This document shows, piece by piece, positions 11,342-16,525 of a DNA stretch of 35,875 nt. The notes below the pieces were generated by a model that did not search any database, was not told where the DNA came from, and worked only from the letters and a program-made list of their open reading frames with translations. Position 1 is the stretch's first letter. Each line of letters opens with the position of its first letter. Source of the DNA: Comamonadaceae bacterium (GTDB lineage: Bacteria; Pseudomonadota; Gammaproteobacteria; Burkholderiales; Burkholderiaceae_C); contig CANFJC010000003.1 in the NCBI GenBank assembly GCA_947447245.1, forward strand, positions 1 through 35,875, given 5' to 3'. The translations under genes were made by a program, and so were the position numbers.

Positions 11342-12361
11342 TTAAGGCTTTGCGAGGGCCTGAAGCTCTGGGAAGTCTTTGGCCATTTGTGCACCATAAA
11401 GCGGTTTGTAAGCCCCTTGGTGGCAAGTGCTGCAATTGACCTTGGCCACATCACCTTTGGGACCGAGGCGATTTGCCGGGAACTTGTCGGTCAGCGGTGT
11501 CATGTAGTCATTGTTCAAGTCACGCGCCATCCGAATGCCATGCCATGCAGTGACACGTTGCGGCCGAGACTCTTCCCAAGATGCAAAGTTGCGCGTGTTG
11601 TGGCAATACGTGCAATTCACACCCAGAGATTCAGACATGTGCACCATCAGCGAGTAAGTGTGCTCAGCTTGCTTGGTCGATGCACGGTTGGCATGAGCGC
11701 CTGCACCGGTCATGGCTGTATTGCTGTTGACACGAATAGGCTGTGCGTCCTTCAGGTAAGGGGTGAAGGGGTCAAACGGCAAAGACGTTAAACCGGCCGC
11801 TTTGGTGGCAATGTTTTGCCCTGCCAAATCACCCAATAAACTGTTGGCATACAGGCGATCTTTTGGCGCTGTCCAAACTTGCGTTGGGATGTTGTTGCCA
11901 CGGTGACAGGTGTAGCACGTGACGCCAGTTTCGGCCACGTGGGCTTTGTAGTCTTGATTGACCTTTTGCGTCATCTCAATCATGCGACGCGCCACCACCT
12001 TGGTGTACTTGTCGTCATCCGCAAAATTTTGAACATTGTGGCAATAAGCGCAACCGGCCTCTGGCGCAACCCATTGGGTAATGGAGGCCATGTGTCGGTT
12101 GAACTGGCCCACGCTCAGATCGCCCAAAACTTGAACATTTTTGTAAACGTCCTTGGCCTTAGGACCATCGGCATCAGCAGCGTCTGCTGCAGCGGGCGCT
12201 GCATTCAAAGACGCTTGCTTGGCCAAGGTACGCGGGTTGTAGATTTGCTCCATGCCCGTGCCACGGAAGCCAGTTTGAACTGTTTCAATGGGCGGCCTTT
12301 CACAGCCGGCCAACATCACAGCGGCCATCAGGCACAGTGCAGTTTTAAAAATCATTTTCAT
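11342..12361 (-). CDS. pufC: Reaction-centre tetraheme cytochrome c subunit PufC
   Basis: Periplasmic electron donor to the photo-oxidised special pair. 339 residues. A lipoprotein signal peptide (residues 1-20) ends at the lipobox MLAGC, so it is probably a diacylglycerol-anchored lipoprotein. Four heme c sites are visible: CAYCH, CYTCH, CTYCH and CSTCH. The [20 protein letters not shown] segment after the lipobox is conserved in PufC. Start overlaps the pufM stop by 4 nt (ATGA, 12358-12361), indicating translational coupling. The HiPIP encoded at 29482-29790 is a plausible donor. Confidence 0.97.
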
Positions 12362-13332
12362 GGTTTCACTCCCAGGATAGCGGGATCAACCACGATAGGG
12401 CTGCCCAATGGGTAAGCAGGGACGACATGGTGTTTGACAGACCAGAGGTACCAGTTGTCAACGACGGTTCCTGTAAGCAAGATGCCGACACCGCCAACCA
12501 AGGGGCAGAGCACTGCAAACCACCACGCCCAGCGGTGAATGGATTCCATGGTGGCGTTAAAGCCCATGGTCCAGCGCCAGAACAAAGCAGCCCGCTCAGA
12601 AGCCGTACCGCGATCTACAATTTGTTCAATCTCACGCTCACCGCCATAACGTCCGACCGCCAAGATGGTGGCACCGTGCATGGCAAACAACAACACAGAA
12701 CCGTACAAGAACACAATCGACAGCGCATGGAACGGGTTGTAGAACAAGTTACCGTAGCGCAGCGAGATGGCCGAGACCCAATCTAAGTGCGGAAAGATCC
12801 CAAAGGGTACCGCCTCTGACCAGCTGCCCATCATGATGGGGCGGAAAAATCCGCAAACCAAGTAGAGCCAAATGGCCGCTGCAAAGGCCCAAGCCACATG
12901 CGTGCCCAAGCCAAGTTGTCTGGCACGACGGTAAGTTCGAACCCACCATAACATGATCGATATGGTCAGCAAGAAGCCCACAACAAGCCACCAACCGCCT
13001 TGAGCCAGCGGTGGAATACTCAGACCATAAGACGGCGGTGGTGGCTCCAGTGCCAGCCAAAACAACTGACGCAGCAATTGAATGGGATTCCAGTCAACCG
13101 AAGCCAACATGTTGAAGCCAATGATGTTGAAAGCAGCGATGCCGAATATCAAGGACGCTACGCCGAGCGAGCCCAGATAAACAGGACCGATTTGTGCATT
13201 GCCAATGCGACCAAAGAGGTGCACCAGAAAAGGTTCCCCCGTGCGCTTGTCGTCGCCGCGAGGTAAGTCAACGCCGTGGTGCAAAGGCCCAACGGGCTGC
13301 ACCGAGGTGAAAAGATTTTGGTATTCGGCCAT
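12358..13332 (-). CDS. pufM: Photosynthetic reaction centre M subunit PufM
   Basis: Core transmembrane subunit that with PufL binds bacteriochlorophylls, bacteriopheophytins, quinones and non-heme iron. 324 residues with five hydrophobic helices. It opens [11 protein letters not shown] and carries RC landmarks such as [33 protein letters not shown] (special-pair region), [20 protein letters not shown] and [20 protein letters not shown] (quinone/iron region). The C-terminus is extended, as expected when a bound tetraheme cytochrome is present. It is 19 nt downstream of pufL and overlaps pufC by 4 nt. Confidence 0.98.
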
Positions 13333-13351: not shown

Positions 13352-14179
13352 TTAGGTGCGCCAGATGGGCATGTTGAGCCACCAACCCCACCATTCAGGC
13401 CAAGCGCCAGTCCAGAACGGGCCACTCACCACAATACAAACAATGCCGAACCACACCGCTGCCAGTGCCAAGAAAAGGCCTAAGCGGTGAATGCCCAAGG
13501 TACCCACTGAGTAACCAATCAGGTCGCGAAAGAACGTGTCTTCGTGTTCTGGCGTCTTGACCACTTCGCCCTTGCCAGGGTTGGTCGCTGACAGCACCAA
13601 GCCGCCGTGCATCGACAGTGCGAGCGTGGTTGCAAAGAACAAACTGGCCGCAATCATGTGCCACGGGTTGTAGTGGAAGTGCAAGTACTGGTAAGCGGTG
13701 TTGCTCACCCAGTCAAGGTGACTGTAGATGCCATAAGGGAATGCATGGCCCCAAGCACCCATCAGCACAGGACGGATCACTTGCAAACTGACATAAGCCA
13801 AAATAGCCATGCTGAAAGCCACTGGCACATGCAAGCCCATGCCTAACTTGCGGCAAATTTCAACTTCACGCAAAGCCCAGGACACAAACGAGCCGATGGC
13901 GCAGACAGTGATCAGTTGCCACAAACCGCCTTCCATCATGGGCGCAAAACGCAAGCCATAAGAAATGTCGGGTGGGGCAATGTTGATTTGCCAAACGTTC
14001 CAAGTGGGGCCCATCGCTGCGCCCCACAAAATCATGGTGGTGCCCGTGAGGACAAAAAACAGTGTCGTGATTCCAAAAAATCCGACATAAAAAGGACCGA
14101 CCCAAAAATCAAACAGGTCGCCCCCAAAAATGGTACCGCCGCGTACACGGTATTTGCGTTCAAAACTCAGCATGGACAT
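13352..14179 (-). CDS. pufL: Photosynthetic reaction centre L subunit PufL
   Basis: Core RC subunit, 275 residues, five transmembrane helices. Opening [20 protein letters not shown] is the standard L-subunit N-terminus. Cofactor regions include [40 protein letters not shown] with the special-pair His, and [20 protein letters not shown] with an iron-ligand His. The ATG at 14179 follows GGAGGATGCAACT, a strong ribosome binding site. It is separated from pufA by 127 nt that contain a strong hairpin. Confidence 0.98.
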
Positions 14180-14243
14180 AGTTGCATCCTCCGACCGATT
14201 GACTGTTTGTGAGGTCTTGTAGGCTTCAAATTAAAAATAAAAG

Positions 14244-14286
14244 GACAGACGCATCGTTCAAATGAATTGAGCGAAGTGCGTCTGTC
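14244..14286 (-). promoter_or_regulatory. Intercistronic pufA-pufL stem-loop
   Basis: GACAGACGCA (14244-14253) and TGCGTCTGTC (14277-14286) form a perfect 10-bp stem. After a 2-nt bulge, TCGTTCAA and TTGAGCGA add an inner stem with one non-Watson-Crick position and a 4-nt ATGA loop. In the transcript a U-rich tract follows. Such a hairpin between pufA and pufL is known in Rhodobacter to protect the LH1 mRNA and set LH1:RC stoichiometry; here the U tract may also cause partial termination. Confidence 0.75.
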
Positions 14287-14306
14287 GACATAAAGACCAG
14301 TGGCCC

Positions 14307-14504
14307 TTATTTTTGCGGCAATGCCGCATTTTGTGGCTGTGCTTTCGCCGCTGCGGCCTTGGCCGTATCGGGATGCCAGCTGTTGATGTTGTACCGATCG
14401 CCGCTGATTTGAATCAGGTGAATCGATGTTGAAATAAAGGCAATCATCAGTCCAGTTAGAACTATTGCCTTGCGGGGATCTATCACACGCCACATGCGCC
14501 ACAT
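14307..14504 (-). CDS. pufA: LH1 antenna alpha subunit PufA
   Basis: 65-residue single-helix BChl-binding polypeptide. The N-terminus MWRMWRVIDPRKAIVL is a classic LH1-alpha opening, and His29 in FISTSIHLIQIS is the axial ligand to BChl a. ATG at 14504 follows AAGGAAA. Odd feature: the tract after the helix reads SGDRYNINSW, placing the first C-terminal Trp 14 residues after His29 rather than the usual ~11 (as in Rhodospirillum rubrum or Rhodobacter alpha chains). The C-terminal tail is Ala/Gln/Lys-rich (AKAAAAKAQPQNAALPQK). It starts 14 nt after the stop of an extra small gene instead of directly after pufB. Confidence 0.93.
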   Translation of the reverse strand: MWRMWRVIDPRKAIVLTGLMIAFISTSIHLIQISGDRYNINSWHPDTAKAAAAKAQPQNAALPQK

Positions 14505-14518
14505 AGTAATTTCCTTTC

Positions 14519-14743
14519 TTAACTCAATTGAGAAATAACGGTATAGACAGAAGACTTCACGCCGTCCAAAGTGCCCGTTGAACCCTCGGCCCCAGGGAGC
14601 CAGCTTCGCCAGTCAAGGACCAGCAACTGTCCCGCTAAAGCGAGAACCATGAACACTAAAAATAGCAAAACATAGGTGACCCCATAACCATCGAAATGGT
14701 CGTGAGATTGAGCCGTTGTCATGCGATCGTTCGGATGGGTCAT
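14519..14743 (-). CDS. Unrecognised 74-aa single-helix membrane protein inserted between pufB and pufA
   Basis: ATG at 14743 with GGAG about 10 nt upstream, 24 nt after pufB, ending 14 nt before pufA, so it is embedded in the LH1 operon with proper translation signals. Residues 1-20 are hydrophilic with His and Asp (RMTTAQSHDHFDGYG), about 21-43 form one membrane helix (VTYVLLFLVFMVLALAGQLL), then LDWRSWLPGAEGS and an amphipathic C-terminal stretch (GVKSSVYTVISQLS). There is no His inside the helix that could ligate BChl in the usual position, so it is not an ordinary alpha or beta chain. It does not look like PufX, PufQ, protein-Y or the Blastochloris gamma chain as I know them. By position it may be an accessory RC-LH1 subunit. 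Function unknown. Confidence 0.8.
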   Translation of the reverse strand: MTHPNDRMTTAQSHDHFDGYGVTYVLLFLVFMVLALAGQLLVLDWRSWLPGAEGSTGTLDGVKSSVYTVISQLS

Positions 14744-14767
14744 ACGTATCTCCGTTGAATGGTTTTT

Positions 14768-14911
14768 TTAGAACCAGGGACGCCAGATCCACACTAAGCT
14801 GTGGGCGAAGAAAGCTCCCACAGCCCACAACAGGTAGCCCTGTATGAAGTACTGGTGAAACTCTTGGGCTTCTTCGTCTGACAGCCCTGAAGGGTTAGCT
14901 GCATCAGTCAT
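14768..14911 (-). CDS. pufB: LH1 antenna beta subunit PufB
   Basis: 47-residue polypeptide, ATG at 14911 preceded by AGAGG, stop TAA at 14768. It reads SGLSDEEAQEFHQYFIQGY then FFAHSLVWIWRPWF at the C-terminus. The LSDEEAQEFH motif, the helix His37 (BChl ligand) and the terminal WRPWF are diagnostic of LH1-beta. First gene of the puf operon, 147 nt downstream of bchZ; a PpsR-like palindrome lies in that gap. Confidence 0.96.
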   Translation of the reverse strand: MTDAANPSGLSDEEAQEFHQYFIQGYLLWAVGAFFAHSLVWIWRPWF

Positions 14912-15058: not shown

Positions 15059-16525
15059 TCATGCGTGTGCGCCTTCATTCGCTTGACCGAACAATTCTGT
15101 GAATCTTTCCGCTTCAACATGAGAGCGGCCGGTTTCCCGTGCATCTCGCTCTGCTTGATCGCGCATTCGTTTGGCTGCTGAAATTCGAACCAATACGGGT
15201 TGTTGTTCCAACAAAGCTTCTAATCTGTCTTGTGCTTCTGGCTCCCACGGCACGGTGGTATTGGGCGCTGAGCGACCCAAAGTGCCTTCAATCTTGTCCA
15301 TCTCGGTGCCCAGTGGCAGGATGTGGAACAGCGCATCAAAAAGACCGTTGCAAAACTCTTGAATGATGTACGTAGCGCCTGCATAGCCCATGAAAGGCGT
15401 GCCGGTATGCCGGCGAATGATGGGCAATGGAAAACTGGCTGGGATGAAACTGGTTTTCATCATGCCGCCACCACCGCACTCGGCCAAATAGATGCGCTCG
15501 TTGTAGCTGCCGTACAAAATGAGCGGCGTTTTTTCCGTGACCAGTCTGCGTACTTCGGCGTTGTCGGTTTTGGCACCCGCGATGCGCGAGATGGCAAAGT
15601 TGCAGGGCAGGCCCATTTCGTCTTCTAAGAAATGGCGAATGCCGCGCGTGTAGGTTTCGTTGGCAACCACGCCAAAGTTGGCAGTACCAAAAAAGTCTTG
15701 GGTGACAGAGCGCCATAAATCCCAAATGGGCTTGATGGTGCTGTGCTTTTCTCTTTCGATGAAGGGCTCGGGATCGAGGCCAAGCAATTCGCCCAAAGAG
15801 CGCAAGAATTTGGTGGTGCTGTGCAAGCCAATGGGTGCTTGCAAGTAAGGCCGCTCTAGAGCTTCACAGAGCATGCGACCAAATTCGCGGTACATGCAAA
15901 TGTTCACATCGGCTTCGACCAAGCGCGACACATCGGCCAGATGTGATCCCAAGGGGAAGACCATGTTGACTTCAGCGCCGATGCCTTGCACCAAGCGGCG
16001 AATTTCAGCCAAATCGCTGGGTGAGTTGAAGGTGCCGTAGCTCGGTCCAATGATATTGACGCGTGGACGCTCGCCTTCTTTGCGCTCCCGCTTGGGCACA
16101 TGCTTGATGCCGTATTGTTGCCACAGCCAGTACATGGCTCGGTTGGCGCATTGCCACTGATCTTCGTCGATGGTGCGCGGTAAAAAGCGTTGCAGGTTGG
16201 TGCCTTCAGGCGTCACACCACCACCAATCATTTCTGCGATTGAACCTGTGACCACCACTGAAGGCAGATCAGGGTTGAGAGTGGCGTGTGCACGGCGCAT
16301 GGCACCTTCGGTGCCTTCACGGCCCAATTGCTCTTCTGCCAAACCCGTGACCACAATGGGCAACTCATGAGGCGGCAGTGCATCGGTGTAATGCAAGACC
16401 GAAGTGACAGGCAAATTCTCGCAGCCCACGGGGCCGTCAATGACAACTTGCAAGCCTTTGATGGCGGTGAACACATACACCGCTCCCCAATAGCCACCTG
16501 CGCGATCGTGGTCAAGAACTAGCAT
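15059..16525 (-). CDS. bchZ: Chlorophyllide a reductase subunit BchZ
   Basis: With BchX and BchY forms the nitrogenase-like complex that reduces ring B of chlorophyllide a. 488 residues. It opens [20 protein letters not shown], with the BchZ Cys in [31 protein letters not shown] follows. Later parts ([32 protein letters not shown]) are typical. The start overlaps the bchY stop by one base (TGATG). Last gene of a probable crtE-crtF-bchCXYZ unit leading into puf, the superoperon arrangement known in Rhodobacter. Confidence 0.97.

Follow-up and report, generated by a model that had tools for sequence, protein, structure and literature searches.

A 74-codon gene, here called X, lies between pufB and pufA in the photosynthesis genes of a Comamonadaceae bacterium, and its product is a paralogue of the LH1 beta chain that lacks the histidine ligating bacteriochlorophyll (BChl). 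Sequence comparison suggests, with a probability of roughly 0.55, that X descends from a duplicated LH1 beta gene and is a resident non-antenna subunit of LH1 with beta topology, packed against the ring; a structural role in RC-LH1 is our best guess at its function. Many freshwater phototrophs have such a gene in this slot. The gene is not new: it has been published as ORF74 of Roseateles depolymerans and as ORF2 of Rubrivivax gelatinosus. New here are its recognition as a His-less beta paralogue, the partition of Burkholderiales genomes into groups of 38, 5 and 3, and the link to frames upstream of pufB.

The puf locus and published records of X

The window, a stretch of 35,875 nucleotides (contig CANFJC010000003.1), carries on its minus strand the genes bchZ, pufB, X, pufA, pufL, pufM and pufC in that order (Table 1). 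The coordinates, strand, length and flanking gaps given for X in the initial annotation were all exact, as was its claim that the gene has a ribosome binding site of its own. The pufB product of the window contains both His residues and ends in WRPWF, and no frame was found in the bchZ-pufB interval by the upstream-frame profile described below. The hairpin stretch following pufA had a z-score of -3.95, with none of 200 shuffled sequences equally stable, and presumably represents the usual element of segmental mRNA stability. Since the hairpins lie between pufA and pufL, X is on their upstream side together with pufB and pufA. The window genome is a draft of 74% completeness in which the two puf light-harvesting genes are the sole PF00556 matches at E ≤ 0.1; no LH2 genes were found in this draft at that threshold.

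Table 1. Positions of puf features in the window and of single-helix frames preceding pufB in other loci
Feature	Locus	Position	Strand	Description and basis
bchZ	window	15059..16525	-	upstream of pufB; named from PF00148, PF08369 and place
pufB	window	14768..14911	-	short LH1 beta chain, 47 aa; ORF; PF00556 E 2.9e-10
pufB-X gap	window	14744..14767	-	24 nt; Shine-Dalgarno GGAG, ending 6 nt 5' of X ATG
X (ORF74/ORF2)	window	14519..14743	-	His-less LH1 beta paralogue, 74 aa, ATG start; ORF, homology, model
X-pufA gap	window	14505..14518	-	14 nt; purine-rich Shine-Dalgarno AAGGAA
pufA	window	14307..14504	-	LH1 alpha chain, 65 aa; ORF; PF00556 E 5e-5
two strong hairpins	window	14185..14310	-	pufA stop to pufL; fold -38.1 kcal/mol
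pufL	window	13352..14179	-	ORF
pufM	window	12358..13332	-	ORF
pufC	window	11342..12361	-	tetrahaem cytochrome; PF02276 E 5.8e-143
upstream frame	L130	1145-1378		single-helix, before pufB
upstream frame	L145	1081-1329		single-helix, before pufB; His near ligand position
upstream frame	L146	1480-1710	reverse complement	single-helix, before pufB
upstream frame	L157	1030-1332		single-helix, before pufB
upstream frame	L164	1789-2076	-	single-helix, before pufB
upstream frame	L166	1145-1372		single-helix, before pufB
upstream frame	L190	1573-1785		single-helix, before pufB
upstream frame	L192	1960-2184		single-helix, before pufB

The initial annotation had allowed that X might prove homologous to an already characterised protein. 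X is in print as ORF74 and ORF2, but the cited passages assign it neither a family nor a function. In those of PMC10037100, ORF74 of R. depolymerans (RD2015_RS05155) has a locus number between those of pufB and pufA, a 1-kb transcript covers all three genes (with Suyama 2002 as the source), and ORF74 ranks third in the list of genes reduced by mutation of a sigma factor (2.34% remaining, compared to 0.71% for pufA and 1.09% for pufB). The passages cited from PMC12817894 describe two frames "of unknown function" in the puf operon of R. gelatinosus, of which ORF2 lies upstream of pufA and has no central His, and reject ORF2 as the source of Gemmatimonas pufA2. X homologues were identified by sequence between pufB and pufA in three Rubrivivax loci (L093, L099, L100), and the 74-aa frame in this slot of R. 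gelatinosus DSM 1709 (L099) is a clear homologue; Roseateles ORF74 was equated with X by name, position and length alone, and no essential difference was seen. A survey of titles and the beginnings of abstracts found no paper presenting ORF74 or ORF2 as beta-like, though Nagashima 1994, Suyama 2002 and Kasalicky 2018 may contain such a description. In the text searched of a 2023 review (PMC10214105) the words Rubrivivax, Burkholderia, betaproteobacter, Limnohabitans and PufQ do not occur, and the cited parts of PMC5374385, PMC12654162 and PMC4949548 contain nothing further on X.

X as a conserved paralogue of LH1 beta

A search of Burkholderiales puf operons, which the initial annotation had proposed as a check, found X conserved in the same position. 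Among the 40 genomes of a relatives search, the window's own included, stop-free homologues were detected in 17 down to E 2.3e-5, each filling a 74-codon slot, which refutes a random frame absent from close relatives; matches of any kind at E ≤ 1 were seen in 23 of the 40, those beyond the 17 being weaker. A scan of named genomes drew on 240 relatives found by tblastn, of which 80 were kept, including Limnohabitans isolates and Rubrivivax gelatinosus. The X set comprised 135 loci with 119 distinct sequences, some genomes having been reached twice. pufB was directly 5' of X in 134 of the 135 loci (the exception is L062) and pufA directly 3' in 131, while the four loci without pufA (L015, L034, L069, L141) all stop at a contig end. 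Thus X occurs with puf operons, between pufB and pufA, and the direct adjacency of these two genes, which had been taken as normal, does not apply to Burkholderiales, where X between them is the rule. The product is 74 aa long in 92 of 97 loci and 71, 73, 73, 75 and 75 aa in the other five. Median dN/dS for X was 0.277 over 1097 non-independent pairs (equal length, dS 0.15-1.2), none reaching 1, compared to 0.116 for pufB and 0.085 for pufA; by this measure X is under purifying selection, constrained yet faster-evolving. On these sequence data X is a genuine gene, well beyond chance.

The family of X was apparent from searches of PDB sequences, in which E-values refer to 177,635 entries. With phmmer, the window protein matched the LH1 betas 7xxf (E 3.6e-7) and 8z81 (E 3.8e-7), and a 17-row X profile reached 8z81 at E 1.5e-14. 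At E ≤ 10 this profile matched 41 sequences, of which 39 are chains of the LH alpha/beta family and two are receptors. In hhalign comparisons X scored 99.4% against long LH1 betas over 61 columns, C-terminal helix included, and 95.8% against the short beta over 42 columns. Since hhalign E-values are pairwise, we relied instead on locally column-shuffled controls, none of 100 of which scored as high in either comparison. An alpha-chain origin (5.7%; 13 of 100 controls as high) and a relation to PufX (0.4% against three PufX rows; 42 of 100 as high) were rejected. Given that the beta matches exceeded all controls and those to alpha and PufX did not, we classify X as a beta paralogue. The alignments establish homology to the long LH1 betas along the conserved length, comprising the helix, the WRxWLPG turn and the C-terminal helix. 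Against this stand the general domain models: neither Pfam nor NCBIfam recognised anything in the window protein, the best PF00556 match among 17 X members was E 0.32, and the NCBIfam pufB model touched two of the 17 (best E 6.6e-4).

The initial annotation was right about a conserved single-helix gene without a His at the BChl position, which is Gln39 in the window protein; it missed both the beta paralogy and the earlier publications, and the His/Asp-rich N-terminus it noted is not conserved across the family. Its view that X is unlike PufX, gamma and protein-W by sequence agrees with the PufX score and with the absence of the names gamma, protein-W and protein-U among the 41 PDB matches. 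PufX, protein-W, protein-U/Y and gamma are small single-helix additions to RC-LH1 and may be functional parallels to X, though the pufX gene follows pufM whereas X stands between pufB and pufA. The closer likeness is to LH1 betas with a C-terminal extension (7xxf of Rhodopila globiformis, 8z81, 9m8m), which have the helix, a WRPWLPG turn and the C-terminal helix in common with X. The long betas of five Burkholderiales (G052, G189, G203, G276, G306) align with X over the same 61 columns; however, each is the sole beta of its operon and has the central His and the EFH motif, both of which X lacks.

Helices are predicted at residues 15-40 (membrane) and 58-73 (C-terminal) of X, with WRSWLPGAE at 45-53 (structure model with mean pLDDT 74 and pTM 0.55). 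The C-terminal helix is modestly amphipathic, with a hydrophobic moment of 0.37 that 4% of shuffles equalled. A Foldseek search with the model returned 10 matches, none at E ≤ 0.001, as expected since a single helix carries too little information.

Distribution of X and frames upstream of pufB

A draw of 399 Burkholderiales genomes contained 48 with reaction-centre genes, of which 46 had a readable antenna region after two whose contigs stop at pufL (G170, G323) were dropped. Three arrangements were found. First, 38 of the 46 encode X and alpha along with a short beta that bears the His; in G075 the alpha gene is on another contig. Second, the five genomes with long betas named above have a single His-bearing beta and no X. 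Third, three genomes of one genus (G092, G212, G243) combine a short beta with another frame, likewise without the His, that precedes pufB. Among the 351 genomes without reaction-centre genes, X was detected at E ≤ 0.001 only in G297, where the contig ends before pufL and which is counted outside the 46. When the class (369 genomes) and the phylum (398 genomes) were also sampled, with some overlap with the order draw, 21 genomes outside Burkholderiales matched. Those of them that were read, a set to which G806 and G871 do not belong, contained His-bearing betas or frames upstream of pufB, and none had X in the pufB-pufA slot. Short betas without X do occur outside the order (G899, G1037, Novosphingobium), so that the three-way split is limited to Burkholderiales.

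Phylogenetic trees were based on 74 columns only. Of the 45 X sequences in the larger tree, 44 formed, together with the G092 upstream frame, one side of a branch supported at 100/100. The second tree had 23 X sequences, and 22 of these alone made up one side at 100/99. The remaining sequence, X of L141, had a long branch and grouped with long betas when the trees were unconstrained; holding all X together was not rejected (AU p 0.63 in the larger tree and 0.26 in the second). Within the limits of so few columns, the trees agree with one reading in which an ancestral long beta was duplicated and its roles were divided, the short beta retaining the pigment and X the tail. The X of L141 (from G075) is also divergent in its C-terminus, SVIPLMFM, which is nearer to long betas than to other X, and it could be an intermediate or have an independent origin.

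A frame matching the upstream-frame profile (A6) precedes pufB in the three Burkholderiales. Outside the order, 20 genomes were compared, five from the same class and 15 from other classes (probably Alphaproteobacteria, to judge from their puf genes), and 12 of them have such a frame; G871, with a weak match to a 322-aa frame, was left out of the 21 matched genomes. Six of the 12 are themselves rows of the profile and so match by construction, and the other six are known by profile match alone. Methylobacterium aquaticum and Candidatus Thiodictyon syntrophicum are two named examples, the frame of the latter being annotated merely as hypothetical. The frames in Table 1 span several classes; they are relatives of LH1 beta, and profile comparison also connects them with PufQ. 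Like X, these Q-like frames have a single helix, mostly no central His and a similar C-terminal helix; unlike X, they lie upstream of pufB, and the LPGAE motif is absent from all nine rows of alignment A8. Their score against the long beta was 98.3%. PufQ of Rhodobacterales (PF05398) is likewise a small single-helix puf product, linked to X via the Q-like frames, but its gene occupies the bchZ-pufB slot, whereas X adjoins pufB and pufA. No match was obtained between PufQ and beta, including the long beta directly, or at E ≤ 1 between PF05398 and the window protein or 16 further members (A1), and the Pfam PufQ cut-off was passed in none of the 20 non-Burkholderiales genomes.

The likeness to PufQ raises the alternative that X is an assembly or pigment-handling factor, which would deliver BChl or assist assembly of LH1 alpha and beta without lasting membership of the complex. 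X would then be the Burkholderiales counterpart of the frame, PufQ or Q-like, found before pufB in many other purple bacteria. PufQ is ascribed a role in assembly; its database records carry only the label "bacteriochlorophyll biosynthetic process". The profile comparisons of X with the Q-like frame (98.1%, 58 columns) and of the Q-like frame with PufQ (93.7%, 61 columns; six annotated PufQ proteins from Rhodobacterales plasmids) both exceeded all 100 shuffled controls, and such a relation fits a helper as well as it fits an LH1 subunit. Moreover, none of the 46 Burkholderiales had X and a Q-like frame together at E ≤ 0.01, a threshold at which the upstream-frame profile found X, beta and that frame plus one weak partial match (G267, E 0.0074). 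The direct match of X to PufQ, however, is weak (42.6% over 26 columns, a level reached by none of 100 controls), and X is no closer to the Q-like frames than to beta: these frames form a separate clade (100/98, second tree), and a joint clade with X is neither supported nor rejected (AU p 0.45). The upstream frame of G092, which stood among X in the larger tree, joined the Q-like frames once more Q-like rows were added, and for that reason is not called X. Finally, a place inside the antenna segment would suit amounts above the needs of a helper. We consider an assembly factor the main rival to the subunit role, though a less probable one.

The profile matches suggest that X, the upstream frame and perhaps PufQ belong to one wider group. 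A bolder and tentative proposal, which we are inclined to doubt, is that the three are branches of one old beta lineage that lost its BChl ligand. They would form a class of non-antenna LH1 subunits or assembly partners that has been overlooked in many purple bacteria and whose Burkholderiales branch came to lie within the antenna segment. A genuine link to PufQ would also give that protein a family origin.

Possible roles of X in the core complex

As a resident non-antenna subunit descended from a duplicated LH1 beta chain, X would insert like beta, with its N-terminus in the cytoplasm and its C-terminal helix on the periplasmic face, and would pack against alpha and beta of the ring with no His-held BChl. 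It could take a beta place and interrupt or gate the ring; alternatively, it could sit on the outer ring face and provide the C-terminal helix that in long betas is part of the chain itself. From its place in the antenna segment before the hairpins we would guess more than one copy per reaction centre, and position alone suggests translation in pufB-like amounts. Additional helices in a BChl a ring have a precedent in 7xxf, whose ring contains 11 gamma-like helices between betas according to the cited part of PMC9640540. Across 54 loci, distance correlations singled out no partner for X, the partial r given bchZ being 0.27-0.36 alike for pufB, pufA, pufL, pufM and pufC.

Residues lost and kept by X bear on whether it could hold pigment. 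In the BChl-ligand column, the 119 distinct X sequences have Gln in 95, Lys in 8, Thr in 8, Asn, His and Ser in 2 each, and Leu and Gly in 1 each, compared to 90 of 90 distinct pufB products with the His motif, which were found by the WRPW motif or by profile, independently of His. The column of the -18 His has Gly in the window protein and varies among members, 9 of the 119 having His. The strongest conservation lies past the membrane helix, in WR..LPGAE and the C-terminal helix: of 119 sequences, W45 is kept in 118, R46 in 118, P50 in 119, G51 in 119, A52 in 117, E53 in 116, V66 in 117 and S71 in 118.

Some of these residues leave room for a pigmented beta variant, in which Gln39 or a water would ligate BChl at one or a few odd LH1 sites. 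In 88 of 119 X sequences Gln at 0 is accompanied by Ala at -4, a small residue at -1 and Trp at +9, and residues at these four positions line the BChl site of beta; two Curvibacter MAGs (L057, L059) even have His at the ligand position, with the remaining beta hallmarks still missing. Thr, Ser, Leu and Gly occur at position 0 as well, however, and nine sequences, all from the window's genus, are changed at three positions together (Val at -4, Lys or Asn at 0, Leu or Tyr at +9) with the gene still kept, so that pigment binding cannot be the general function. We therefore regard a pigmented variant as unlikely. Docking of the reaction-centre-bound cytochrome PufC by the conserved part past the membrane helix would fit the conservation peak there and the presence of pufC in 44 of the 46 surveyed genomes, but is very improbable, being weakened by two genomes of one genus (G326 and G355, drafts of 85% completeness) that keep X with no PF02276 match and no CXXCH frame of at least 120 aa in the 3-4 kb after pufM. 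In these small genomes (loci L179 and L180) a frame of 146-159 aa without CXXCH follows pufM.

A non-antenna LH1 subunit remains our preferred reading of X. Opening, sealing and assembly of the LH1 ring are, according to the cited parts of PMC10214105 and PMC9640540, known chiefly from a few models, several with a small extra protein of their own. X is a protein to seek in the betaproteobacterial core complex, where it would be expected to appear as a beta fold without His-bound BChl, and the long-beta genomes without X offer natural controls. Lastly, two antenna types were observed within a single genus: in L001-L006 alpha has a ISGDRYNINSWHPD-like motif and X has Gln, and in L009-L017 alpha has LLSTNKFNWLDG and X has Lys or Asn.
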